NCBI GenBank assembly: GCA_029260755.1
Contig: JAJDCQ010000024.1
Span: 1 to 64,000 of the forward strand
Direction: 5' to 3'
From: Planctomycetota bacterium
GTDB lineage: Bacteria > Planctomycetota > J058 > JAJDCQ01
DNA length: 64,000 nt
Positions 34,832 through 46,401 of this stretch are shown here, in pieces (within the stretch, counting starts at the first letter, position 1; the number at the start of each line of letters is the position of its first letter). The notes beneath the pieces were generated by a model, which saw only the letters and a program-made list of their open reading frames with translations, did no database searches and was not told where the DNA came from. A program made the position numbers and the translations under genes.

Positions 34832-36256
34832 TCAGCGATCGCGCCAGACGACGACGCTGCCGCTCATCATGTCGTGGAACGCGCGGCGCTGCGGGTGGAG
34901 CGCGATCGAGAGGAAGCCGATCCCGAGCGGCGCCGCGCTCACGACGTAGCAGACGCTCCGCCACAGCCCCGCGAGGAGGCCGATCCGGCGCCCGTCGAGG
35001 CGCCGGACCCGCAGCCCGACGAGGAGCTTCCCGGGCGTGAAGCCGAGGAGGCCGTTGCCGATGCTCGTCCAGAGGAAGCCGAGGCCGAGGGCGTCGACGA
35101 GGAGCAGCGCGCGGTCGAGCGGCAGCTCCCGTCCGAGGAGCCAGGCGAGGGCGCGGCCGGCGGCGAACCCTGGGGCGTGGTCCGAGAGGGGACCGGTGAG
35201 CGATCGGAGGACCATCAGGCCGAAGACGAAGAGACACACATCGAGGAAGGTGGCGAAGCCACGCTCGAAGACACCCGCGACCGCGGGGCCTGCCTTCGGC
35301 CGCGCGATCTCGAGAGACGGAGCGCTCTCCCCCGCGGGACGGGTCGGGCTCGCCCTGGCCGCCGCGAGCTTCGCCGCCTCCCCGGCGACGGTCTTGGGGC
35401 GCGGGCGCTTCCTGGTGATCGCCTTCGTCACCCGCTTCACCGGCGCGAGGGCGACGTCGCGGACGGTCAGGAGGTCGGCCAGCGCCTCGTCCGCGCTGCC
35501 GTAGCGCCGCTGGAGGCGCGTGTAGCACTTGCGGAAGAGGTCGTCGATCCGGGTGTCGACGCCCGCGACGTGGTCGCCCGGCACCTCGCCGCCGACGGGC
35601 TGGGTGCCGGTGATCATCTCGAAGAGGACGATCCCGAAGGCGTAGAGGTCCGCCCGACCGTCGATCTTGCGGCCGACCTCGCGCTGCTCGGGCGCCATGT
35701 AGGCGAGCGTCCCGGCGATGCTCCCCTCGCGCGAGAGGTGGCTGAGCGACGCCTCGAGCGCCTCCTTCGTCGGCTCGGAGAGCTGCCCGAGGCCGAAGTC
35801 GGCGACCTTGACCGATCCGGTCGCCTTCTCGATGAGGACGTTCTCGGGCTTCACGTCGCGGTGGGTCACGCCGACGGCGTGGGCGGCGGCCAGCGCGCCG
35901 AGCACCTCGCAGCCGATCCGGACCGCCTCGTCGGGCGACAGCCGCTCCTCGCGACGGAGGCGGTCGCGGAGGGTCTCGCCGTCGATCAGCTCGACGGCCA
36001 GATACGGCGGGTCGTGGTCGGGGTCGAGGCCGATCGTCTGCACGATCCGGGCGTCGCCCTTGAGCTTGTCCTGGATGAGGCCCTCGCGCCGGAGCCGATC
36101 GCGCGAGCTCCCCTCGTGCGGGATCTTCACGGCGACGAGCCGGTCGGGGAGGACGTGATGGCGCGCCCGCCACACCTCACCGAAGCCGCCGCGGCCGATC
36201 CTCTCCTCGAGGATCCACTCGCCGACCCGGTCGTTGGTGTCGAGCTCGAAGCTCAC
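34832..36256 (-). CDS. Ser/Thr protein kinase fused to an RDD membrane domain
   Basis: A 474-residue protein. The kinase domain (about 12-265) has GRGGFGEVW, VAVK, HRDVKPENVL, DFG and APEQ. A basic linker leads to an RDD domain (about 325-470) with hydrophobic helices and the diagnostic ends GFTPGKLLVGLRV and RRAFHDMMSGSVVV. RDD domains are small membrane modules, some linked to ion or small-molecule exchange. It is the second of two adjacent kinase-RDD genes; the pair follows the ESCRT-like genes on the same strand with gaps of about 70 bases, so they may form its regulatory end. Confidence 0.9.
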   Translation of the reverse strand: MSFELDTNDRVGEWILEERIGRGGFGEVWRARHHVLPDRLVAVKIPHEGSSRDRLRREGLIQDKLKGDARIVQTIGLDPDHDPPYLAVELIDGETLRDRLRREERLSPDEAVRIGCEVLGALAAAHAVGVTHRDVKPENVLIEKATGSVKVADFGLGQLSEPTKEALEASLSHLSREGSIAGTLAYMAPEQREVGRKIDGRADLYAFGIVLFEMITGTQPVGGEVPGDHVAGVDTRIDDLFRKCYTRLQRRYGSADEALADLLTVRDVALAPVKRVTKAITRKRPRPKTVAGEAAKLAAARASPTRPAGESAPSLEIARPKAGPAVAGVFERGFATFLDVCLFVFGLMVLRSLTGPLSDHAPGFAAGRALAWLLGRELPLDRALLLVDALGLGFLWTSIGNGLLGFTPGKLLVGLRVRRLDGRRIGLLAGLWRSVCYVVSAAPLGIGFLSIALHPQRRAFHDMMSGSVVVWRDR

Positions 36257-36324: not shown

Positions 36325-37743
36325 TCATCCATCGAGGTCGTCCTCGGCGAGCTCCTCGTCGGCGAGCTCGAGCGGCACGGAGGGCCCGTAGACCACGGCC
36401 GACCCGCAGACATGGTCGTGGAACGAGCGCTTCTCGCTGTCGATCGCCACGAGGGCGAAACCGGCGAACGCCGGGAGCGCCGAGAAGATCTTGAGGATCG
36501 TCCGGCCGACCGCCTGCATCGCGCCGATGCCCCGGCCGGTCCGATAGTCGACCACGCGCGCCCCGACGATCCAGCGCCCGATCGTCCGGCCGGAGACCGC
36601 CAGGAAGCTGACCTCGTAGAGGAAGAACAGGACCGGCCACCAGAGCGGGAAGACCCTGACCAGGTAGAACATCGCGTAGCCGAACACGATCAGGTCGAGC
36701 GACGTCGCGAGCAGCCGCGCGAAGAAGCCGGTCGGCGTCAGGCCCATCCGCTCGAGCGGGCGCCTGCGGACCGGCCGCGCCAGCGGTCGAACGCGCTCGC
36801 GGACCGCCGGCGGCGGCTCCTCGACGACCGGCTCGGTCGCCTCGAGCGCGTCGAGGTCGCGCAGGACGTGCTTCACGTCGCCGTAGCGGGTCTCGAGGCG
36901 CGAGTAGCATCCGCGGAAGATCTTGTCGATCCGGGGATCGAGCCCGCCGCGCACCTCGCTCGGCACCTCGCCGCCCGCCGGCGTCTCGCCGGTCAGCATC
37001 TCGAAGAGGACGATCCCGAGGGCGTAGAGGTCGGTCCGGTGGTCGACGTCACGCGCCCGCTTGGGGTCCTGCTGCTCGGGCGACATGTAACGCAGCGTCC
37101 CGACGATGTCGGCGCCCTCGCGCGTCCGCAGACTCCCGCTCCGCATGAGCGAGGCGCTCTCGGCGTCGTAGATCTTGCCCAGGCCGAAGTCGGTCAGCCG
37201 GACCCGGCCCTCCTCGTCGAGGAGGACGTTCTCGGGCTTGAGGTCGCGATGAACGATGCCCTTACCGTGCGCCTCGAAGAGCGCCTCGGCGATCTCGCGG
37301 CCGATCCGGAGCGCCTCGGCCTCGGCGAGGCGTCCCTCGCGCCGGATCCGTTCGCGGAGGCTCTCGCCCTCGACCCACTCCATGATCAGGTACGGCGGAT
37401 CGTGCTCGGGGTCGAGGCCGACGGTCTGGACGATGTGGGGGCTGTCGACCGAGTGCTGGAGGATTCCTTCGCTCCGGAGCTTCGAGACGTACTCGCGGTC
37501 GAGCGGCACCTTCACCGCGACGAGTCGGTCCCGCCAGACGTGGTGGTGGCCGCGCCACACCTCGCCGAAGCCGCCGCGGCCGACGAGCTCGTCGAGGATG
37601 TACTCGCTCACCCGCTGGCCCGGCTCGAGGCCGGTGCCGCCCGCACTCCCGCTGGCGGTCCGCTCGCCCGAAGCGACGGGCGCCTCCGTGCCGGCGGGCT
37701 GCCAGCCGGTGTCGCGGGTCACCTCTCGATTGGCGTCGTTCAC
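36325..37743 (-). CDS. Ser/Thr protein kinase fused to an RDD membrane domain (paralogue)
   Basis: About 472 residues. A disordered N-terminal tail of 40 residues precedes the kinase (about 45-305; GRGGFGEVW, VAVK, HRDLKPENVL, DFG, SPEQ) and an RDD domain (about 340-460; GRTIGRWIVGARVVDYRTG, then RSFHDHVCGSAVVY). An acidic tail follows. Two adjacent GTG codons could start it; the second fits the GAGGAG spacing better. It keeps HRD, unlike the zinc-ribbon kinases. Its membrane anchoring and position after the membrane protein at 37811 suggest it acts at the same membrane as the ESCRT-like set. Confidence 0.9.
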   Translation of the reverse strand: MNDANREVTRDTGWQPAGTEAPVASGERTASGSAGGTGLEPGQRVSEYILDELVGRGGFGEVWRGHHHVWRDRLVAVKVPLDREYVSKLRSEGILQHSVDSPHIVQTVGLDPEHDPPYLIMEWVEGESLRERIRREGRLAEAEALRIGREIAEALFEAHGKGIVHRDLKPENVLLDEEGRVRLTDFGLGKIYDAESASLMRSGSLRTREGADIVGTLRYMSPEQQDPKRARDVDHRTDLYALGIVLFEMLTGETPAGGEVPSEVRGGLDPRIDKIFRGCYSRLETRYGDVKHVLRDLDALEATEPVVEEPPPAVRERVRPLARPVRRRPLERMGLTPTGFFARLLATSLDLIVFGYAMFYLVRVFPLWWPVLFFLYEVSFLAVSGRTIGRWIVGARVVDYRTGRGIGAMQAVGRTILKIFSALPAFAGFALVAIDSEKRSFHDHVCGSAVVYGPSVPLELADEELAEDDLDG

Positions 37744-37810
37744 CACGCGCTCCTCGCGTTTCCGGGCCGCCTCGATTCGGAGCGGGGCGCCCGGAAGTCA
37801 GACGCTCGCA

Positions 37811-38680
37811 CTAGACGAGCGTCGAGAAGAAGTTGAGCGCGTCGAAGTTCCAGAAGGCCGCCACCCCCGTGAGGATGAAGACCATGATCCAGAGGAACGC
37901 GCCCAGGTGGGCGAACCCAAGCAAGAGCCAGGCCGCGAAGAACGCGACGAGCGTCATGCTCGCGAGGAGGCTCAGATTGTAGGCGTTCTGACGCTTGCTC
38001 AGGACGGCCTTCGCGACGCCCGAGGCATAAGCGATGAACGGGAGCGACCCCGCGATGATCAGCCACAGGATCAGCCGGAGGATGAAGTGGATCTTGCGGA
38101 CGTTGTTCCCGGTCTTGAGGTAGAACCCGGGCTCGCCCTTGTAGACGTAGGGCGTGCCCACGAGCTGGCCGTTCGCGACCTGGAAGAGGTTCGCGCGAAG
38201 CTCGATCGCGGGCGGAGTGCCGGAGCCGCCGTCGGTGAACTTGATCATCTCGAGGAACAGGATCCCGTGGATGTCCATGTTCTTCTCGCGGTTGAGCCAC
38301 ATCGCGGCCTGGCGCGCCGTCCCGACGCTGCCGGGCGTGTCGCCGAACTGCTTGGTGAAGTCCTCACCCGCCCGGTCGCCGGCGTCGTCCCAGGTGTAGA
38401 CGGCGAACTTGCTCGCCCCGCTGACGTGGTCGGCCACCATGTTGTTGAGCCGGTAACCCTCGTCGGTCGCGCCGACGTCGGACGCGATCAGCACCTTGTT
38501 GATGTCGCGGTGCCGGGGGAGGTTCTTGGCGAGGTCCTCCGAGGCGTCGAGCGCCATGTAGTGCATGATGAAGTTCAGGTCGCGCTTGAACTCGAGCGAC
38601 CCGATCACGAAGTAGAGACCGGTCAGCAGGATGATGCTCAGGAAGATGATCAAGAGCACCTTGAGGATGACGTTCAGCAT
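37811..38680 (-). CDS. Multi-pass membrane protein in the ESCRT-like gene run
   Basis: A 289-residue protein. One N-terminal helix (about 5-27), a soluble domain of about 170 residues (RDINKVLIASDVGATDEGY, FAVYTWDDAGDRAGEDF, a Trp-rich middle) and then three to four closely spaced hydrophobic helices (about 200-280). I do not recognise a family. It is 46 bases downstream of the propeller protein and upstream of the kinase-RDD genes. A role as membrane receptor or anchor for the soluble coiled-coil and AAA proteins encoded upstream is inferred from position only. Confidence 0.75.
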   Translation of the reverse strand: MLNVILKVLLIIFLSIILLTGLYFVIGSLEFKRDLNFIMHYMALDASEDLAKNLPRHRDINKVLIASDVGATDEGYRLNNMVADHVSGASKFAVYTWDDAGDRAGEDFTKQFGDTPGSVGTARQAAMWLNREKNMDIHGILFLEMIKFTDGGSGTPPAIELRANLFQVANGQLVGTPYVYKGEPGFYLKTGNNVRKIHFILRLILWLIIAGSLPFIAYASGVAKAVLSKRQNAYNLSLLASMTLVAFFAAWLLLGFAHLGAFLWIMVFILTGVAAFWNFDALNFFSTLV

Positions 38681-38726: not shown

Positions 38727-40649
38727 TCACGCCTCGGCCCGCCGCTCGCGGCAGACCCAGACGTCCTGGATCTTGTCGGCGACCCGGATCGTGAGGGTCG
38801 GCTCGGCCGGCCGCTTCGGGTGCCAGACGAAGATCTTGTAGCCGGCGCGGCTCACGCCGAAGATGTAGTCGCTCGCCGCGTCCACCCAGCGGACCTCCTC
38901 GCGAGCCCGATACTCCTTGAACTTGTCCTTGCCGACCGTCGCGACGGTCACGCTGAAGTCCTTGCTCCCCACGACGAGGTGGTTCTCGCCGCCGGCCTCG
39001 AACAGCCGGAGCATGTAGATCGGGTTCGCCTTCCGCACCGGGAGCTCGTTCGGGCTTCGGGGGTCGTCGAGGTTCCACCGCAGGATCGTGCCGTACTTGT
39101 TGCCGGCGTAGAGCCCGCTTCGTCCGACGCAGAACGCGGTGATCGATTCGGTCGAGCCGCTGTAGCAGGTGAGCTCCGTTTTCCCGCGGACGAGATCGGC
39201 CGCGTAGATGTTCGGCCCGCTGCTGAAGTAGAGCTTTCCGTCGCTGCCGAGGCAGGCGCCGCGCGTCGCCGAGTGCTTCCCGGTGACGTCGTCCCAGCGG
39301 GTCTGGCTCCGGACGACGCCCTTCACGTCCCAGGCGACGATCCCGAGCTCGGAGTGGCTGGCGTAGACCCGGTCGTCGAACGTGCAGATCGAGTTCGCCC
39401 CGCCGTGGCCGTCGGGCGCCTTCGGGAACGCGAACTCCTTCGGGTCGTGCCCCTCCTCGATCCAGTAGACGCCCCGCTGGGCGCCGGCGAGGATCACCTC
39501 CTGCCCGCGGAGGCGCTGGAACCGCACGCTCCGGAGGTAGCCGAGGGTGCCGCCCTCGGTGTCGTGGACCTCCTTGGCGACCTCGGGGTTGAGGTTCGTC
39601 TTCGGGTCGAAGGCGAGGATCTTCTTGCCGACGACGGCGAGGAGGCGCCGCGTCTGCGGCCCGCGCTCCTGCGCGTCGGCGAGCTCCACCCCGCTCAGCT
39701 CGGCGAGCTTGCTCTGCATCTCGCGGAGCTGCTGGGTGAGCTTCTCCTCGACCTCGCGCGCCTTGAGGGCCGCCTTCTCGTCGTCGGGCAGGTCGCGCTC
39801 GATGAGCTTCTTGACGAGGTCGGCGCGGAGGTCGTCGTCGTCGAGGAGAAAGACGAGCGCCTTCGTCTCGTCCGCCCCCATCTTCCCCTGGAGCTCCTCC
39901 CAGCGCTTGAGCTGCTGGTCGTGGCGCTTGTCGTCGATCTCGCCGCGGAGCTCGAGCTCCTTGATCAGGCCCTCGGCCTCGAGGCGCTTGTTCAGCTCCT
40001 CGAGCCGCTGCTCCTGCTCGCGCTCCTCGGCCTTGATCCGCGCCTCGACCTCGTTGCGCTTGAGCTCGTCGTAGGCTTCGGACTCGAACCGCGGATGGAG
40101 CGTCTCGCGGAGCGCGATCCCGCCGTCGAACAGCGGCCGTTTCATCTCCTCGGCGAAGAGGTCGGCGAGCGCGTCGCGGACGTCGGTCTCGCAGAGGTCG
40201 TGGGCCGTCCGGGCGAGGACGAACGCCTTCAGGGCATCGCGGACGTAGGGGAGGAGGTAGCCCTCGAAGTCGCTCCGGGAGTAGTCCTCCCGGTCGCCGA
40301 GGAGGTTCTTCTCGAACGACTCGAGGTCGAACACCTCGGCCCGGAACGCGAACGAGAGCCTGACCGAGGCCTCCACCTCGAGCTTGTCGGAGCTGCCGAG
40401 CCCCTCGATCCGGAAGTCGATCGCGAACGGGTCCGCCTTCGCCAGGACACCCTTGAGGTCGCTCGCGCTCTGCTGAGCGGCGCCCTTGATGACGACGGCG
40501 TCGGCGCCGCCCTTCCGGACCAGCGCGACCGCACCTTCGGGGATGGTCAGGGTGCGCGAGAGCAGCCCGGGCAGCCGGTCATCGGCGACCCGGGCGGCGA
40601 GCACACCCTCGTGCGTCATGAACTCACTGACGTCGAGCTTCGTCGCCAT
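38727..40649 (-). CDS. SPFH/band-7-like, coiled-coil, beta-propeller protein
   Basis: A 640-residue soluble protein with three parts. Residues about 20-175 look like an SPFH (band 7) domain (IPEGAVALVRKGG, LEVEASVRLSFAFRAEVFD, YVRDALKAFV). Residues about 180-320 are a highly charged coiled coil typical of stomatin/flotillin relatives. Residues about 335-630 are a beta-propeller of about six WD/PQQ-like blades (VGKKILAFDPK, AGAQRGVYWIEEG, SHSELGIVAWDV, SSGPNIYAADL, AGNKYGTILRWNL, FGVSRAGYKIFVWHP). SPFH proteins oligomerise on membranes and mark microdomains; the propeller would recruit partners. No membrane segment is present. It follows the MIT-AAA gene by 136 bases. Confidence 0.8.
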   Translation of the reverse strand: MATKLDVSEFMTHEGVLAARVADDRLPGLLSRTLTIPEGAVALVRKGGADAVVIKGAAQQSASDLKGVLAKADPFAIDFRIEGLGSSDKLEVEASVRLSFAFRAEVFDLESFEKNLLGDREDYSRSDFEGYLLPYVRDALKAFVLARTAHDLCETDVRDALADLFAEEMKRPLFDGGIALRETLHPRFESEAYDELKRNEVEARIKAEEREQEQRLEELNKRLEAEGLIKELELRGEIDDKRHDQQLKRWEELQGKMGADETKALVFLLDDDDLRADLVKKLIERDLPDDEKAALKAREVEEKLTQQLREMQSKLAELSGVELADAQERGPQTRRLLAVVGKKILAFDPKTNLNPEVAKEVHDTEGGTLGYLRSVRFQRLRGQEVILAGAQRGVYWIEEGHDPKEFAFPKAPDGHGGANSICTFDDRVYASHSELGIVAWDVKGVVRSQTRWDDVTGKHSATRGACLGSDGKLYFSSGPNIYAADLVRGKTELTCYSGSTESITAFCVGRSGLYAGNKYGTILRWNLDDPRSPNELPVRKANPIYMLRLFEAGGENHLVVGSKDFSVTVATVGKDKFKEYRAREEVRWVDAASDYIFGVSRAGYKIFVWHPKRPAEPTLTIRVADKIQDVWVCRERRAEA

Positions 40650-40785: not shown

Positions 40786-41949
40786 TCACTCCCCGCGGGC
40801 GAACCGCTCGAAGGGCTCGAGCTGATTCGGCCGCACCGTCGGGACGCTCTCGGCGACGATCGCGTCGAAGTCGGCCGCGGTGATCGGTCCCGAGCCGCCG
40901 CCGGCCACGATCCGGCGGAAGGCCTTCTGCGCTGCGTTCTCGCAGATCTCCTTGAGGTCGGCGCCGGAGTAGCCATCGAGCCGGTCGGCGAGCTCGCCGA
41001 CATCGACGTCGGCGGCGAGCGGACGGTCGACGAGGTTGAGCTCGAGGATCTTCTTCCGGGCGGGTCGGTCGGGGAGCGAGACGTAGACCCGCTCGTCGAA
41101 GCGTCCGGGCCGCATGATCGCCGGATCGAGCTGCCACGGCTTGTTCGTCGCGCCGAGGAAGAGGACCGGGTTCTTCTCGTGGCTGTCGAAGCCGTCGAGC
41201 TCGGCGAGGATCTGCGGGACGACCCGCTGCATCACCGCGCTCCCCTGATCGGTCCGGGCCGGCGCGAGCGCCTCGACCTCGTCGAAGAAGATGATCGACC
41301 GCTCGTTCGTCCGGGCGACGGCGAAGAGGCGCGCTATGTTCTTCTCCGCCTCGCCGACGAGCGTCTCCATGATGTCGGCGGGCTTGACGTTGAAGAACGC
41401 CGCCTCGATCTCGCCGGCGACCGCCTTCGCGAGCATCGTCTTGCCGGTGCCGGGCGGGCCGAACAGGAGCACGCCGCCGCCCTGCTTGATCTTGAACTTC
41501 TCCGCCGCCTCGGGGTGGGTGAACGGGTAGATCATCTTGATGCGGATCTCGTCCTTCACCTTCTCGAGACCCGCGATGTCGTCGAACTTGATGTTCGGCG
41601 TGCCGACCGCCTGGAAGCGCTCGGCGCCCTCGGCCGCCCGCCCCTCGAGGTCGACGGCGTTGCCGTCCTTGTCGACGGCGCCGGGCGTGCCGAGCTTCGG
41701 CTTCTTCGGGCTGCGAGGTCCCGCGTCGGGGTCGATCCCCTTCGCCTTCTCGAGCAGCTTCCGAGCCTGCTCGGAGCGCTTCTTGGCGAGCTGGCCGTCG
41801 CTGCCCTGGGCGAGCTTGAAGAGGAACTCCGCCGCCTTGAGGAGGCTGAAGCGTGCCTCCTTCATCTCCCCATCGCGGTACGCAGCGAGGCCTTTCTCCT
41901 GGTACTCCTTGAAGGACCTCATGTAGAAGTCCATGCCGCTCAGCGCCAT
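40786..41949 (-). CDS. Vps4/spastin-like AAA ATPase with MIT-like N-terminus
   Basis: A 387-residue classical AAA protein. Residues about 5-72 form a three-helix, MIT-like domain (YQEKGLAAYRDGEMKEARFS...ARKLLEKAKG). A linker leads to an AAA cassette: DDIAGLEKVKDEI, Walker A GPPGTGKT (164-171), Walker B IIFFDEVE, sensor-1 GATNKP, and arginine-finger segment PGRFDERV. The aromatic pore-loop residue of Vps4 is replaced by Leu (TLVGEAE). MIT domains bind tails of ESCRT-III proteins, and the AAA ring pulls the filament apart. The ATG at 41949 has GAGGTG five bases upstream. The coiled-coil gene at 41996 lies immediately upstream. Confidence 0.88.
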   Translation of the reverse strand: MALSGMDFYMRSFKEYQEKGLAAYRDGEMKEARFSLLKAAEFLFKLAQGSDGQLAKKRSEQARKLLEKAKGIDPDAGPRSPKKPKLGTPGAVDKDGNAVDLEGRAAEGAERFQAVGTPNIKFDDIAGLEKVKDEIRIKMIYPFTHPEAAEKFKIKQGGGVLLFGPPGTGKTMLAKAVAGEIEAAFFNVKPADIMETLVGEAEKNIARLFAVARTNERSIIFFDEVEALAPARTDQGSAVMQRVVPQILAELDGFDSHEKNPVLFLGATNKPWQLDPAIMRPGRFDERVYVSLPDRPARKKILELNLVDRPLAADVDVGELADRLDGYSGADLKEICENAAQKAFRRIVAGGGSGPITAADFDAIVAESVPTVRPNQLEPFERFARGE

Positions 41950-41995
41950 GGGCACACCTCGCTCGCAACGAAGACGGCGTGGGGGCGGGGGACGA

Positions 41996-42601
41996 TCAAG
42001 CCTTGCCGAGCTCCCGCTCGATCTCGTCGAGGCCGGCGTCGATCTGCGCGTCGGCCTCCTCGAACGCCTTGGCCTCCTCCTGGACGACCTCCTCCTCGAT
42101 GAGCTTGTCGATCTCGGCGTCGCTGACGAGCTCGTCGGCGTTCATCGCGTCCATGTTCATCATCGAGTCGGTCGACTGCTCGAGCATCATCTCCATCGCC
42201 TGACTCATGTTCTCCGCCTTCCCGATGGCAGACTCGCAGTTCTTCTGGATCTCGGCGAGATTGACCGAGCCGTACGCGTCGCTGATCGCCATCGCGACCG
42301 TCGAGACCGCGCCCGCGAAGTTCGCGTGAGCCTCGGCCTGGTCCTTGAGCTGGTTGAAGGTCTCGATGTTGAGGATCTGGCGCTCCATCATCCGGCGCTG
42401 GAAGGCGGTCCGCTTCAGGTTCGCCTTGATGAAGTTGAGCTGATACTTGTCGCCGAGCCCCTTGGCGCGCTTGGCCTTCTTGATCAGCTCCTTCTCATCC
42501 TTCTCGAGCTGGCGGATGTGGCGCTTGGCATTGCTGATGCCGCGCCGGATCTCCATCTCGCGCTCGAGCTTCCGCTCTTCCTTGCTCTTGAACAGCCCCA
42601 T
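41996..42601 (-). CDS. ESCRT-III/Snf7-like (CHMP2/Vps2-type) coiled-coil protein
   Basis: A 201-residue protein with the full ESCRT-III plan. The first residues MGLF resemble the amphipathic N-termini of eukaryotic CHMP proteins. A very basic alpha-helical hairpin (about 5-95) is followed by a region with NLAEIQK, spaced Met/Glu residues and EMMLEQSTDSMM (114-148), strikingly like the NLPQIQK...EEMM part of human CHMP2A as I remember it. An acidic tail ends in LDEIERELGK (191-200), which resembles an MIT-interacting motif. It lies between the two MIT-AAA genes. Such proteins polymerise on membranes to bend or cut them. Confidence 0.75.
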   Translation of the reverse strand: MGLFKSKEERKLEREMEIRRGISNAKRHIRQLEKDEKELIKKAKRAKGLGDKYQLNFIKANLKRTAFQRRMMERQILNIETFNQLKDQAEAHANFAGAVSTVAMAISDAYGSVNLAEIQKNCESAIGKAENMSQAMEMMLEQSTDSMMNMDAMNADELVSDAEIDKLIEEEVVQEEAKAFEEADAQIDAGLDEIERELGKA

Positions 42602-42616
42602 CGTCTCGCCCTCGCG

Positions 42617-43924
42617 TCAGTCCTCGGTGCTCTCGGCCCAGTCCACGTACCGCTTCATGTCCTCGGGGCTGGTCACCGGGTGAATGCCGACCCGCGCCTC
42701 CTCGAAGTCCACGAGGCGGAGCGGCCGGACCTTGATCTCGTAGCTCTGCACCTTCTCGAGGCCCGAGTCGACGAGCCCCGGCAGGTCCAGGTTGCACTCG
42801 GCCACCATCCGGTTGGTGACCTCCTTGCAGAAGCGGTCGATCTCGCGACCGCTGTAACCGTCGGTCATGTCGACGAGCTCGTCGAGCTCGCACTCGATGT
42901 CGAACCCCTTCTTCCCGAGCAGGATGTCGAGGATCGCCCGGCGGGTGACCGGGTCGGGGAGCGGGATCAGGATCTTCTTGTCGAACCGGCTCAACACGGC
43001 CGCATCGAGATCCCACGGACGGTTGGTCGCGGCGATCGTCAGGACGTAGACGTCCTTGCGCCCCTTCTCGGCCAGGCCGTCGAGCTCGCTCAGGATCGTC
43101 GAGAGGATCCGGCGCTCGGTGCCGCTGTCACCGTCGTCCCGACTGCCGCAGATGCTCTCGAACTCGTCGAGGAAGATGACCGCCGGGCTCGCGTCGCGCG
43201 CGGTGCCGTAGAGCTCGCTGATGATCTTGGTCGACTCGCCGAAGTACTTCGACATCACCGAGCTGACCTTGCAGTTGAAGAAGACGGCCCGCTGGCCGCC
43301 GTCGTGGAGCTTGAGGGCGTTGCTCGTCGCCGCGGCGAGGAGCGTCTTGCCGGTGCCGGGCGGCCCGTAGAACAGCATGTTCCGCCAGGTCTGGAGGTCG
43401 ACGCCTTCGGGCTTCTTGGCGATCGAGACGGCGAGGGCGTACTTGATCTCCTCCTTCGTCGCCTCGAGGCCGCCGATGTCCTGCCAGGTCAGAGAGCTCG
43501 CGTGGATCAGCTCGTTGACGACCTTGTTGATCTCGCCCTTCTCCTCCTCGCCCTCGCGCGCCTTGCCGCTGCTGCCCCGGCCGCCGCCGCGGCGCGGCGG
43601 GGAGCCCGACGACGAGGACGACGAGGAGGAAGCGGACGAGGAGGTCGAGCTCGTCGAGGACGACGAGCTCTTCTTCTCCTCGGGGGCCGGCACCTCGCCG
43701 TCGCGGAGACGGCGGGCGAACTCGCGGTACTTGAGCGCCTTCTTCTTGAACTCGGCCTCGTCCTGGCGGCGCTGGCTCCGCTGGCTCAGCCGAAGGGCGA
43801 CGTCGTAGGCCTTCTCGTAATAGGTGGCCGCGGTCTCGTCCTCACCCGCCTGGTAGGCTTCGTCCGCGCGAGACACCGTCTTCGCGAGCGTTCTCCGCAT
43901 CTCGATGGTGAGGTCGATCGCCAT
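42617..43924 (-). CDS. Vps4-like AAA ATPase with MIT-like domain and poly-Ser linker
   Basis: A 435-residue AAA protein. The N-terminal MIT-like three-helix domain (about 8-75: RADEAYQAGEDETAATYYEKA) is joined by a nearly pure Ser linker (86-107) and a Gly/Arg stretch to an AAA cassette. It has Walker A GPPGTGKT (187-194), aromatic pore loop SKYFGES (225-231, as in Vps4 SKWMGES), Walker B VIFLDEFE (249-256), sensor-1 AATNRP, and SRFDKKILIPLP, close to the RRFEKRIYIPLP of Vps4. This is the more Vps4-like of the two AAA proteins and the best candidate disassembly motor. GAGGTG precedes the ATG. Confidence 0.9.
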   Translation of the reverse strand: MAIDLTIEMRRTLAKTVSRADEAYQAGEDETAATYYEKAYDVALRLSQRSQRRQDEAEFKKKALKYREFARRLRDGEVPAPEEKKSSSSSTSSTSSSASSSSSSSSGSPPRRGGGRGSSGKAREGEEEKGEINKVVNELIHASSLTWQDIGGLEATKEEIKYALAVSIAKKPEGVDLQTWRNMLFYGPPGTGKTLLAAATSNALKLHDGGQRAVFFNCKVSSVMSKYFGESTKIISELYGTARDASPAVIFLDEFESICGSRDDGDSGTERRILSTILSELDGLAEKGRKDVYVLTIAATNRPWDLDAAVLSRFDKKILIPLPDPVTRRAILDILLGKKGFDIECELDELVDMTDGYSGREIDRFCKEVTNRMVAECNLDLPGLVDSGLEKVQSYEIKVRPLRLVDFEEARVGIHPVTSPEDMKRYVDWAESTED

Positions 43925-43956
43925 ACGCTTTCACCTCGTGGGCGTGGCCGGGACGA

Positions 43957-44589
43957 CTAGACGTCCTCGGTCTCGCCCGGCTCCTCGATCTTCTTCTTGA
44001 GCTCCTCTTCCCGCTCGATCGCGACGTCGAGGTCCCCCTGCTCCTCGGCCGAGATGATCGCGTCGAGGTCCTTCAGGAAGGCCTCCTTGTTGGGATCCTC
44101 GTCGGTGAAGGCTTCCATCTCCTCGACCTCGATCCCGATCTCCTCCATGTGGGAGTTCAGCATGTCGAGGTACGCCGTCTCGTCGATCTCGCCGGCGCGG
44201 AGCTTCTCGTCGAGCCCCGAGGTCCGGACCCGCTCCATCAGCCCGCGGATCTTGCCCTTGTCGCTCGTCTTCTCGAGCCGCTCGAGACCGCGGATGTAGC
44301 GGTTGAGCCCGATCGCCTCGAGGTTGAGCACCTTGGCATCGCGCCGGACCATCGCCTGCTCGTACTGGATGCCCTTGATCTCGTCGTAGTAGAGGTCGGT
44401 GTCGGCGTGGTTGCCTTCCTTCCGCGCCTTCTTGAGCTTCTTGAGCGACTCGTCGCTCCGGATGCCGAGCTTCCGGAGCTCGAGCGTCGACCGCTTGCGG
44501 TCGCGCTTCACGCCCAGCAGCGCGACCTTGAGGTCGCGCGAGGTGATTTCCTTGTCCTTCTGTCCGAACAGTTTCTCGAAAAGTGCCAC
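43957..44589 (-). CDS. ESCRT-III/Snf7-like coiled-coil protein (CHMP4-type N-terminus)
   Basis: A 210-residue, almost wholly helical protein. It starts MALFEKLFGQK, nearly the pattern of the CHMP4/Snf7 membrane-inserting N-terminus (MSVFGKLFG). A basic helical hairpin (about 15-105), then acidic helices (about 115-185) and a charged C-terminal helix (DVAIEREEELKKKIEE) follow, the last a candidate MIT-interacting motif. The GTG start is three bases after the upstream stop codon, with GGAG six bases before it, so the two coiled-coil genes are coupled. Membership of the ESCRT-III/PspA superfamily is inferred from this layout and the AAA-MIT neighbours. Confidence 0.68.
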   Translation of the reverse strand: MALFEKLFGQKDKEITSRDLKVALLGVKRDRKRSTLELRKLGIRSDESLKKLKKARKEGNHADTDLYYDEIKGIQYEQAMVRRDAKVLNLEAIGLNRYIRGLERLEKTSDKGKIRGLMERVRTSGLDEKLRAGEIDETAYLDMLNSHMEEIGIEVEEMEAFTDEDPNKEAFLKDLDAIISAEEQGDLDVAIEREEELKKKIEEPGETEDV

Positions 44590-44592
44590 GGG

Positions 44593-45456
44593 TCACTCCG
44601 TCTCCAGGCGCTTCTCTTCGCGCTCGGTCTCGGGCTCCTTCTCCTCCGCCGGCTTCATCGTTGCGGTATCGGTCGCCAGGACCTCCTCCATCGACGGGCG
44701 GCGGATCTTGATCGGAGCCTTCTCGGCCTTCTCCTCGTCCTTCTTCTCCTCCTCGAGGGCTGCGGCTTCCTCCTCGAGGACCTTGTCTTCGGTCTTCTTC
44801 GCGGCCTCGGCGGCCTTCTCGAAGTCGGCCTCGGCGGACTCCGTCTCGGCCTTCTCGGCCTCCTGAGCCGCGGCCTCGGAGCCCTCGCGCTCGGCGAAGT
44901 CCTTCTTGAGCTCGGCCTCGAGGGCGGCGAGCTCGCGGTCGAGGCGCACGTTCTCGGTGATCCCCTCGACCTCGCCCGACAGGGCTTGCTCGGCCTCGAC
45001 GTAGCGCTCGTGGCGCTCCTTCACGTCGCCGTACTTCACGGCGAGGTCGTCGATCTCCTCGACCTGGAGCACATTGCCGTGCTCCATGAGGGCCATCTCC
45101 TGGATCCGGTTCAGGATCCCGAGGTTGCTCTCGATCTTCTGCTGGAGGATCGTGCTCTGGCGCTCGTAGCTCGCGATCCGCTTCCGGAGCTGGAGCACCT
45201 TCTTGAGCGAGAGCTCCTTCTCGCGCCCGCTGACCAGCCCCTTGGCGACCTTCTCCTGATGCTGGAGCTCGTCACGGCCGAGCGTCTCGATCTCGCGATC
45301 GACCCGCTCCTCCTTGATCACCTGGAGCTCGACCACGGCGAGGTCGAGCTTGTCGCGCAGCTCCTCGAGGGACTCGGCCTCCTCGATGGCCTTGCGCGCC
45401 TCCTCGGTGATGCTGCGGCGCATGAACAGGGTTTTTACGCGTTCGAAAAGCGACAT
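44593..45456 (-). CDS. PspA/ESCRT-III-like coiled-coil protein with long acidic tail
   Basis: A 287-residue protein. The start MSLFERVKTLFMRR matches the M-x-LF beginnings of the two paralogues downstream; an alternative GTG at 45489 would add 11 residues. Residues about 15-180 are continuous coiled coil with the alternation seen in PspA/Vipp1 and ESCRT-III hairpins. From about 185 to 287 the sequence is a low-complexity Glu/Ala/Lys tail with an embedded IKIRRPSMEEVL segment. Its core is the least similar to known Snf7 proteins of the three, so plain coiled-coil function cannot be excluded. Confidence 0.6.
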   Translation of the reverse strand: MSLFERVKTLFMRRSITEEARKAIEEAESLEELRDKLDLAVVELQVIKEERVDREIETLGRDELQHQEKVAKGLVSGREKELSLKKVLQLRKRIASYERQSTILQQKIESNLGILNRIQEMALMEHGNVLQVEEIDDLAVKYGDVKERHERYVEAEQALSGEVEGITENVRLDRELAALEAELKKDFAEREGSEAAAQEAEKAETESAEADFEKAAEAAKKTEDKVLEEEAAALEEEKKDEEKAEKAPIKIRRPSMEEVLATDTATMKPAEEKEPETEREEKRLETE

Positions 45457-45555
45457 GCTGCTCTTCTTCGTTCCGGTCTCTGCGATCACGTGTCCGTCCT
45501 CGCGCTCACTGCCGCGCCCCGGCCGGCGCCGGCGCGCAGCATGCGCACGGACGGG

Positions 45556-46401
45556 TCAGAAGCGCTTCCGCCTGATGATTTCCTCTCCGCCCGCCTGGAT
45601 GAGCTCGAGATCCGAGTCGACGCTCGTGATCTCGTCGATCGCCCGCTGGAGCATGCCCTCGTCCACGCCGAGGTCCTCCCGCAGACGACGCATGACCAGG
45701 AACCCGCCTCGCGGCCGAAGCTTCGGGTTGTCCTTGATGAACTGGCAGACGCGGGACAGCTTCTCCTCCTTCGATTCCGGATCGAAGAAGTCGTCCGCGT
45801 CTTCCCACGAAGGCCCGATCGCGCCGAGCTTCCGCCACGCCGTTCCGCCGACGTTCTCGACGAGGCAGACGGCCAGGTTGCTCTGGCTGGGCACGTGGGA
45901 GACGGCGTCGGCGGTCCACCCCGGCGTGGCCAGGACGCCGACGAAGTACATCACGTCGTCCTTCAAGACGAGCTCGTCGAGGGCGCGCTCGAGGTCGCCG
46001 GGCCCGAGGGCCCGCTTCGACTCGCGGCTCTTGATCAGATCCTCGAGAGGAGAGACCGACATCGCCCGGAAGACGACCCTCGGCTCGCGCCGCAGGAAGA
46101 ACGATCGGGTGAAGACCTCGATCTCGACGGACCGGTCGAGGGGGAGGACGTCGAGCAGGCTGCGCTCGAAGATCCTGGCCTTCTTCATGAGATTGATCAC
46201 GGAGCTCGCGCGGTCCCGCCGGACGACGGTCCGCTCGCGCGGGCTCGCCGCGAACGAGCGCCCGTGGTAGGGGCTCCAGACGCTGCGAACGTCGTCGAAC
46301 CGGGCCGTGAACCGCTCGAGGAAGGTCTCCTCGAGCGCCCGGGCGCGCTCGGCGCTCGTGACGCCGTCTCGCTCCTTGACCGCCGCCTCGCGTGTACTCA
46401 C
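45556..46401 (-). CDS. First gene of the ESCRT-like run; probable C-terminal winged-helix domain
   Basis: A 281-residue soluble protein with no recognised family. The N-terminal 200 residues mix helices and strands (SVEIEVFTRSFFLRREPRVVFRAM, DDVMYFVGVLATPGW, LAVCLVENVGG). The last 70 residues (EKLSRVCQFIKDNPKLRPRGGFLVMRRLREDLGVDEGMLQRAIDEI, given here only in outline) look like a winged helix: three helices and a short hairpin ending GGEEIIRRKRF. Winged helices occur both in regulators and as protein-protein modules of ESCRT-II, so it might regulate the operon or nucleate the filament. It follows a strong promoter by about 180 bases. Confidence 0.65.
   Translation of the reverse strand: MSTREAAVKERDGVTSAERARALEETFLERFTARFDDVRSVWSPYHGRSFAASPRERTVVRRDRASSVINLMKKARIFERSLLDVLPLDRSVEIEVFTRSFFLRREPRVVFRAMSVSPLEDLIKSRESKRALGPGDLERALDELVLKDDVMYFVGVLATPGWTADAVSHVPSQSNLAVCLVENVGGTAWRKLGAIGPSWEDADDFFDPESKEEKLSRVCQFIKDNPKLRPRGGFLVMRRLREDLGVDEGMLQRAIDEITSVDSDLELIQAGGEEIIRRKRF

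Follow-up and report, generated by a model that had tools for sequence, protein, structure and literature searches.

Full sets of ESCRT-III (endosomal sorting complex required for transport III) proteins and Vps4 have so far been described as limited to archaea and eukaryotes. In the archaeal ESCRT/Cdv systems (CdvB, CdvC and the euryarchaeal 'main' and adaptin clades), ESCRT-III genes adjoin a gene for an AAA ATPase with an MIT domain (MIT-AAA), a winged-helix gene lies upstream of ESCRT-III in many loci, and genes for kinases, SPFH or beta-propeller proteins occur in some (Makarova et al. 2024, PMC10936438). In bacteria, PspA/Vipp1 belong to the ESCRT-III superfamily and have PspC and SPFH neighbours (Liu et al. 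2021, PMC8281802), and a clear Vps4 homologue has been stated to be lacking (PMC7615534). Transfers of Vps4 to bacteria with displacement of Snf7, and some bacterial operons joining PspA or Snf7 to AAA genes, have been described by Ravi et al. 2024 (PMC11237479). Here, a 64,000-nucleotide stretch of DNA from a Planctomycetota bacterium (the window hereafter), part of contig JAJDCQ010000024.1 (C147) in a draft genome of 12.26 Mb (276 contigs, 87.7% complete), was found to carry an operon that probably encodes a bacterial ESCRT machine.

The operon, transcribed from the minus strand in the order A, B, C, D, E, F, G, H, kinase, kinase, shares the archaeal features listed above, and differs from the archaeal systems in being bacterial, in having two motors and a PspC gene, in joining SPFH and propeller in one protein and, in Phycisphaerae, in a winged helix fused N-terminally to the ESCRT-III protein. 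With the eukaryotic ESCRT-III/VPS4 system (CHMP2A, CHMP3, Snf7) it has in common a Snf7-family subunit, several paralogues and an MIT-AAA motor, whereas A has an N-terminal alpha/beta domain and the canonical MIT-interacting motif 1 (MIM1) was not found. CHMP7 holds a winged helix and ESCRT-III in one chain, as the A-B fusion of Phycisphaerae does. With the PspA/Vipp1 systems it shares the ESCRT-III superfamily and the PspC and SPFH neighbours, but it has no PspA_IM30 match and encodes three distinct subunits together with MIT-like AAA genes dedicated to them; the PspA gene of the genome lies elsewhere. The neighbourhoods of Ravi et al. are similar in that Snf7 or PspA lies near AAA genes in some bacteria and Vps4-like ATPases occur in several lineages; their Vps4-like genes, however, pair with a TPR-6TM gene that replaces Snf7, and the string 'planctomyc' is absent from the main text of that paper (supplements outside the search). 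No account of this operon was found in the literature searched (preprints and supplements outside its scope), including the parts covered of PMC7618577, PMC12818579 and PMC4164004.

Results

A Snf7-family protein and two MIT-like AAA ATPases

Protein E of the window matches Pfam Snf7 (PF03357) at 4e-4 with 20.6 bits, the cut-off being 27.3 bits. Among its relatives (120 listed, 276 in total), 19 of those listed have a precomputed PF03357 domain, none of the 120 has another domain, and those that are named are hypothetical proteins. When 42 of the listed relatives, the window protein included, were aligned (alignment A1) and scanned, Snf7 appeared at an E-value of at most 0.1 in 40, the best being 6.5e-8, and the next family in 7. 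The profile of these 42 members retrieved nine PDB sequences at an E-value of at most 10, namely four CHMP3, one CHMP2A, two CHMP1B, spectrin and dynein light chain; the top five matches (2.6e-4 to 4.6e-3) are all ESCRT-III proteins. A wider profile retrieved only Snf7 and CHMP2A, with weak E-values of 0.03-0.29. Judged by these profile comparisons, E is an ESCRT-III protein of the Snf7 family. None of B, C and E had PspA_IM30 (PF04012) among its listed matches at an E-value of at most 10, the filters dropping most matches above 0.1.

The strict MIM1 pattern was found at a fraction of 0.00 in the E proteins of 81 loci, in 118 E tails left after a length filter (set P), in 18 C proteins, in 47 of the C'-type proteins of Phycisphaerae and in 34 A-B fusions; MIM2 was not searched. 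A relaxed MIM1-like pattern occurred in 58% of 81 E tails and in 2% of shuffled tails, and it was given no weight because the E sequences are related to one another. An apparent D-E fusion of 601 amino acids in locus L071 was rejected as an artefact, its reading frame spanning masked N bases.

Protein D carries GPPGTGKT, the predicted Vps4-type pore loop YFGES at residue 227 and SRFD at residue 312, and F carries GPPGTGKT, LVGE and PGRFD without the YFGES and SRFD forms. MIT-like N-termini had been proposed for both ATPases, and the comparisons bear this out for D and, only through D, for F: the D N-terminus forms a three-helix bundle in the predicted structure and, among natural proteins in the PDB, matches the MIT domains of VPS4 best (E-values from 6e-5), and the F N-terminus is homologous to that of D. 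Pfam MIT was seen, under its cut-off, in 2 of 19 D members (A6). Vps4_C was found in 11 of 20 D members at an E-value of at most 0.01 (best 3.1e-7), the window protein scoring 19.9 bits with a cut-off of 21.3. The 20 members (A2) were drawn from 22 proteins without L071, which has the N gap, and L084; 19 of them make up A6. For F, 35 of 50 proteins were aligned (A3) and 28 of these were kept in A7, which left out seven with diverged N-termini, six of them closely related to the window (L062, L063, L064, L066, L067 and L070). In the AAA domain, the window D protein scores higher for CdvC (170 bits) than for CDC48 (159.6 bits), both far under the cut-off, and across the D family CDC48 leads, as it does in F. 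In three AAA comparisons, p97 was ahead in two and the Vps4/katanin group in the third, tied.

Further likely ESCRT-III-type proteins and a winged-helix protein

Protein A aligns with the N-terminal half of the A-B fusion in locus L122 (BLASTP, 25% identity, E-value 2e-18). The modelled fusion has a winged helix at residues 191-257, for which human ESCRT-II stands at rank 15 (probability 0.84) among many generic winged helices, and its residues 1-190, corresponding to the N-terminal domain of A, are hardly covered by fold matches. Its C-terminal half shows an ESCRT-III-like hairpin in the predicted model, with ESCRT-III members in 12 of the 17 fold matches listed over it; the alpha-helical core with a long hairpin of helices 1 and 2, a mark of the ESCRT-III superfamily, was recovered in the prediction. 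An iterated profile family unites B with this half of the fusions; a direct BLASTP comparison of window B with the fusion was not significant (E-value 0.31).

The Pfam scan gave no Snf7 match for B and C, C and C' gave no ESCRT match in the PDB or Pfam, and none of 240 C-type proteins listed has a precomputed Pfam domain. By hhalign, C aligns with C' at 94.5% and C' with B at 95.9%, the corresponding values being 5.5% for C with B directly, under 1% for B or C' with E, and 36%, or 59% with narrower alignments, for C with E. Since this chain from C through C' to B coincides with a conserved place in the operon, flanked by B on one side and the AAA or E gene on the other, C is likely an ESCRT-III-type protein as judged from sequence. 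A jackhmmer walk from window C also arrived at E, C', B and the fusions; hhalign was preferred because the frame set of the walk was small and rich in coiled coils. The alignments used comprised 18 of 26 sequences (A4), 34 of 42 fusion frames (A5), and 47 (A8) and 34 (A9) members picked for spread. In loci L071, L075, L077, L081, L083 and L089, a tandem pair of C'-type genes lies beside B and E, so that up to four ESCRT-III-type genes may occur per operon.

The original prediction had described the small proteins as having M-x-LF starts, basic hairpins and acidic C-terminal tails. Acidic tails are indeed present in the last 60 residues of B, C and E. The other two features hold for E (MGLF, net charge +11 in the first 90 residues) and C ((GTG)ALF, +8) but not fully for B, in which MSLF occurs only at an internal methionine and a net basic hairpin is lacking, the first 90 residues from MSLF having a net charge of -3.

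Operon layout and neighbouring genes

The successive intergenic gaps from A to the second kinase gene are 66, 3, 32, 15, 40, 136, 46, 64 and 68 bases, and the GC content at third codon positions (GC3) is 0.92-0.96 for A to F and 0.92-0.97 across all ten genes (Table 1). The GC3 of A to F and the short gaps are expected of real genes, and, on gaps and GC3 alike, the stretch from A to the second kinase gene reads as a single operon with up to ten genes. Of the original claim of five adjacent same-strand genes, all five (B to F) are present, but the span 40786..46401 holds six, A having been left uncounted.

Table 1 Genes of the operon in the window.
Gene	Position	Strand	Description
A	45556..46401	-	281 amino acids; N-terminal alpha/beta domain and C-terminal winged helix, judged by its A-B homolog; joined to B in Phycisphaerae
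B	44593..45489	-	ESCRT-III-type; 298 amino acids from GTG, 287 from internal MSLF at 45456
C	43957..44589	-	Likely ESCRT-III-type; 210 amino acids
D	42617..43924	-	Vps4-like AAA ATPase with MIT-like N-terminus; 435 amino acids
E	41996..42601	-	Snf7-family ESCRT-III protein, by profile; 201 amino acids
F	40786..41955	-	Second MIT-like AAA ATPase; 389 amino acids; AAA 4e-39
G	38727..40649	-	SPFH/Band-7-like domain, coiled coil, beta-propeller; 640 amino acids
H	37811..38680	-	289 amino acids; hydrophobic segments, likely membrane protein (sequence, synteny)
Ser/Thr protein kinase	36325..37746	-	RDD membrane domain; 64 bases past H; Pkinase 4.5e-42, RDD 2.5e-13
Second Ser/Thr protein kinase	34832..36256	-	RDD domain; Pkinase 2.4e-36, RDD 1.1e-14

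G and H are neighbours by conserved synteny. Band_7 is above the cut-off in the G homologs of L122 and L070 and not in those of the window or L099, the G propeller has weak matches only, and the Pfam scan of H gave nothing above the cut-off. Kinase-family genes recur across operon-bearing loci; in L122, a kinase with zinc ribbons lies upstream of the A-B fusion. A PspC-like gene is present in 27 of 80 kept loci, in L122 by domain (1.5e-22) and in the other 26 by iterated profile only. In L122 (9420-9770) it lies between C' and E, as in Phycisphaerae versions, which ties the operon to envelope stress. The separate PspA_IM30 gene of the window genome (40.3 bits) lies on contig C190 (12724-13137; L146). 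Upstream of the operon in L099 (3926-5302) and L122 (3118-4875) is a gene with a GGDEF motif.

Distribution of the operon in planctomycetes

The same gene order recurs in other genomes, with E proteins just ~35-60% identical to that of the window, arguing that it is not due to chance. E was found in 27 of 118 relatives (window genome counted, one match each), in 55 of 392 genomes sampled from the window phylum (one marginal; 54 with another query), in 13 of 14 genomes of one class (that of G236; all at least 85% complete) and in 58 of 198 genomes of another (one marginal), to which G405, the genome holding the locus L129 (titled Phycisphaerales), belongs. A GTDB scan gave 127 stretches encoding an E relative, the best 80 of which were kept; 73 of these have planctomycete names, five are named 'bacterium' only, one is Sumerlaeota and one Proteobacteria (perhaps misbinned). 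In the last two, L088 and L086, respectively, E occurs with F, reflecting either spread past planctomycetes or misbinning.

Sequence for 3.5 kb upstream was available in 64 loci, of which 62 contain A, 61 B, 61 C and 18 D; for 3.5 kb downstream it was available in 59, of which 44 contain F and 41 G. An adjacent AAA gene occurs in 42 of the 46 loci with both flanks; in three of the other four, F lies at another place in the genome, and the fourth is a draft genome without F at an E-value of at most 1e-60. Snf7 and MIT-AAA genes, the pairing that marks an ESCRT system, are thus encoded together. Chromosome CP070718.1 (L129) carries the A-B gene at 492 kb, with E and F located near 1.22 Mb, suggesting that the parts are retained even when unlinked.

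FtsZ above the cut-off was found in none of the 118 relatives, window genome included, with 13 of 14 control genomes positive, and gave no match in either of two operon-bearing chromosome-level genomes. Matches under the cut-off occur in 5 of the 118 (best 1.1e-43; four are L142-L145) and are perhaps divergent FtsZ/tubulin homologues.

Discussion

The proposal of an ESCRT-like gene set is supported by Snf7-like E, the hairpin in relatives of B, the link of C through C', MIT-like D and the link of F through D; an ESCRT-III core and an MIT fold, whose absence had been named beforehand as refuting, were both recovered. We therefore consider it probable that the operon encodes a bacterial ESCRT machine acting in membrane repair or outward budding. 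B, C and E would polymerise as a filament on the cytoplasmic membrane, and D and F would use ATP to pull subunits from the polymer, thereby bending, sealing or cutting the membrane. A, beside or fused to B, may seed or place the filament, as proposed for archaeal winged-helix ESCRT proteins, the SPFH-propeller protein G and the membrane protein H may anchor the machine to a membrane patch, and the kinases may signal membrane state or control the machine. Given the PspC genes in Phycisphaerae versions, its most likely job is to repair the cytoplasmic membrane under stress or to bud it outward. Several points qualify this reading: Snf7, MIT and Vps4_C are all under Pfam cut-offs in the window proteins, F appears MIT-like by homology through D only, C is assigned via indirect homology, and the AAA scores do not separate Vps4 from Cdc48 descent.

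That last point, together with the lack of strict MIM1, would also suit a PspA-like coat, in which the helical proteins are static membrane-stabilising assemblies and the ATPases are regulators or chaperones rather than Vps4-type disassembly motors. The PspC-like genes in about a third of the kept loci and the SPFH neighbour, known from some PspA loci (PMC10936438), fit such a coat as well; yet the window proteins have no PspA_IM30 match, a separate PspA is encoded in the genome, E matches Snf7 rather than PspA, and MIT-like domains on two motors suit tail binding, making it quite unlikely. It is very improbable that the likeness to ESCRT arises merely from helical hairpins in coiled-coil proteins served by Cdc48-type TPR-AAA chaperones, as Snf7 is by far the most frequent Pfam match of the E family, its five best PDB matches are all CHMP proteins and ESCRT-III dominates the fold matches of the hairpin.

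How planctomycetes divide without FtsZ is still unsettled (PMC6952346, PMC5147048, PMC12283558), and the operon could be the missing division machine, with ESCRT-III rings and Vps4-like motors cutting the neck like Cdv in Sulfolobus. The FtsZ results in the relatives and in both chromosome-level carriers, the near universality of E in some groups, such as the class with 13 of 14 genomes positive, and the three paralogues, as in Sulfolobales (PMC11796394), are consistent with this. However, E is missing in 140 of the 198 genomes of G405's class and 337 of the 392 of the phylum sample; if FtsZ is also missing there, which published work and the sampled relatives point to, division runs without both, and the PspC, SPFH and kinase neighbours indicate envelope state. 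Division is therefore an unlikely role, and as a general main role it was ruled out because most sampled genomes lack E. A bolder form of the ESCRT reading is put forward tentatively and remains somewhat doubtful: a whole machine native to bacteria, with an ESCRT-II-like winged-helix adaptor that in Phycisphaerae is joined to ESCRT-III, three ESCRT-III proteins, two Vps4-type motors, an SPFH-propeller scaffold and kinases, may form an operon that is core to several deep planctomycete lineages and may perform reverse-topology membrane cutting in FtsZ-less hosts. The complete machine would then no longer be a speciality of archaea and eukaryotes.

If the ESCRT reading is true, the question of where the ESCRT-III/Vps4 machine originated would shift. 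An operon with ESCRT-III and Vps4-like parts, plus winged-helix, SPFH and kinase genes, would offer a small, purifiable system, and it makes testable the question, raised in PMC6952346, of how fission is driven without FtsZ in Phycisphaerae and Brocadiales.

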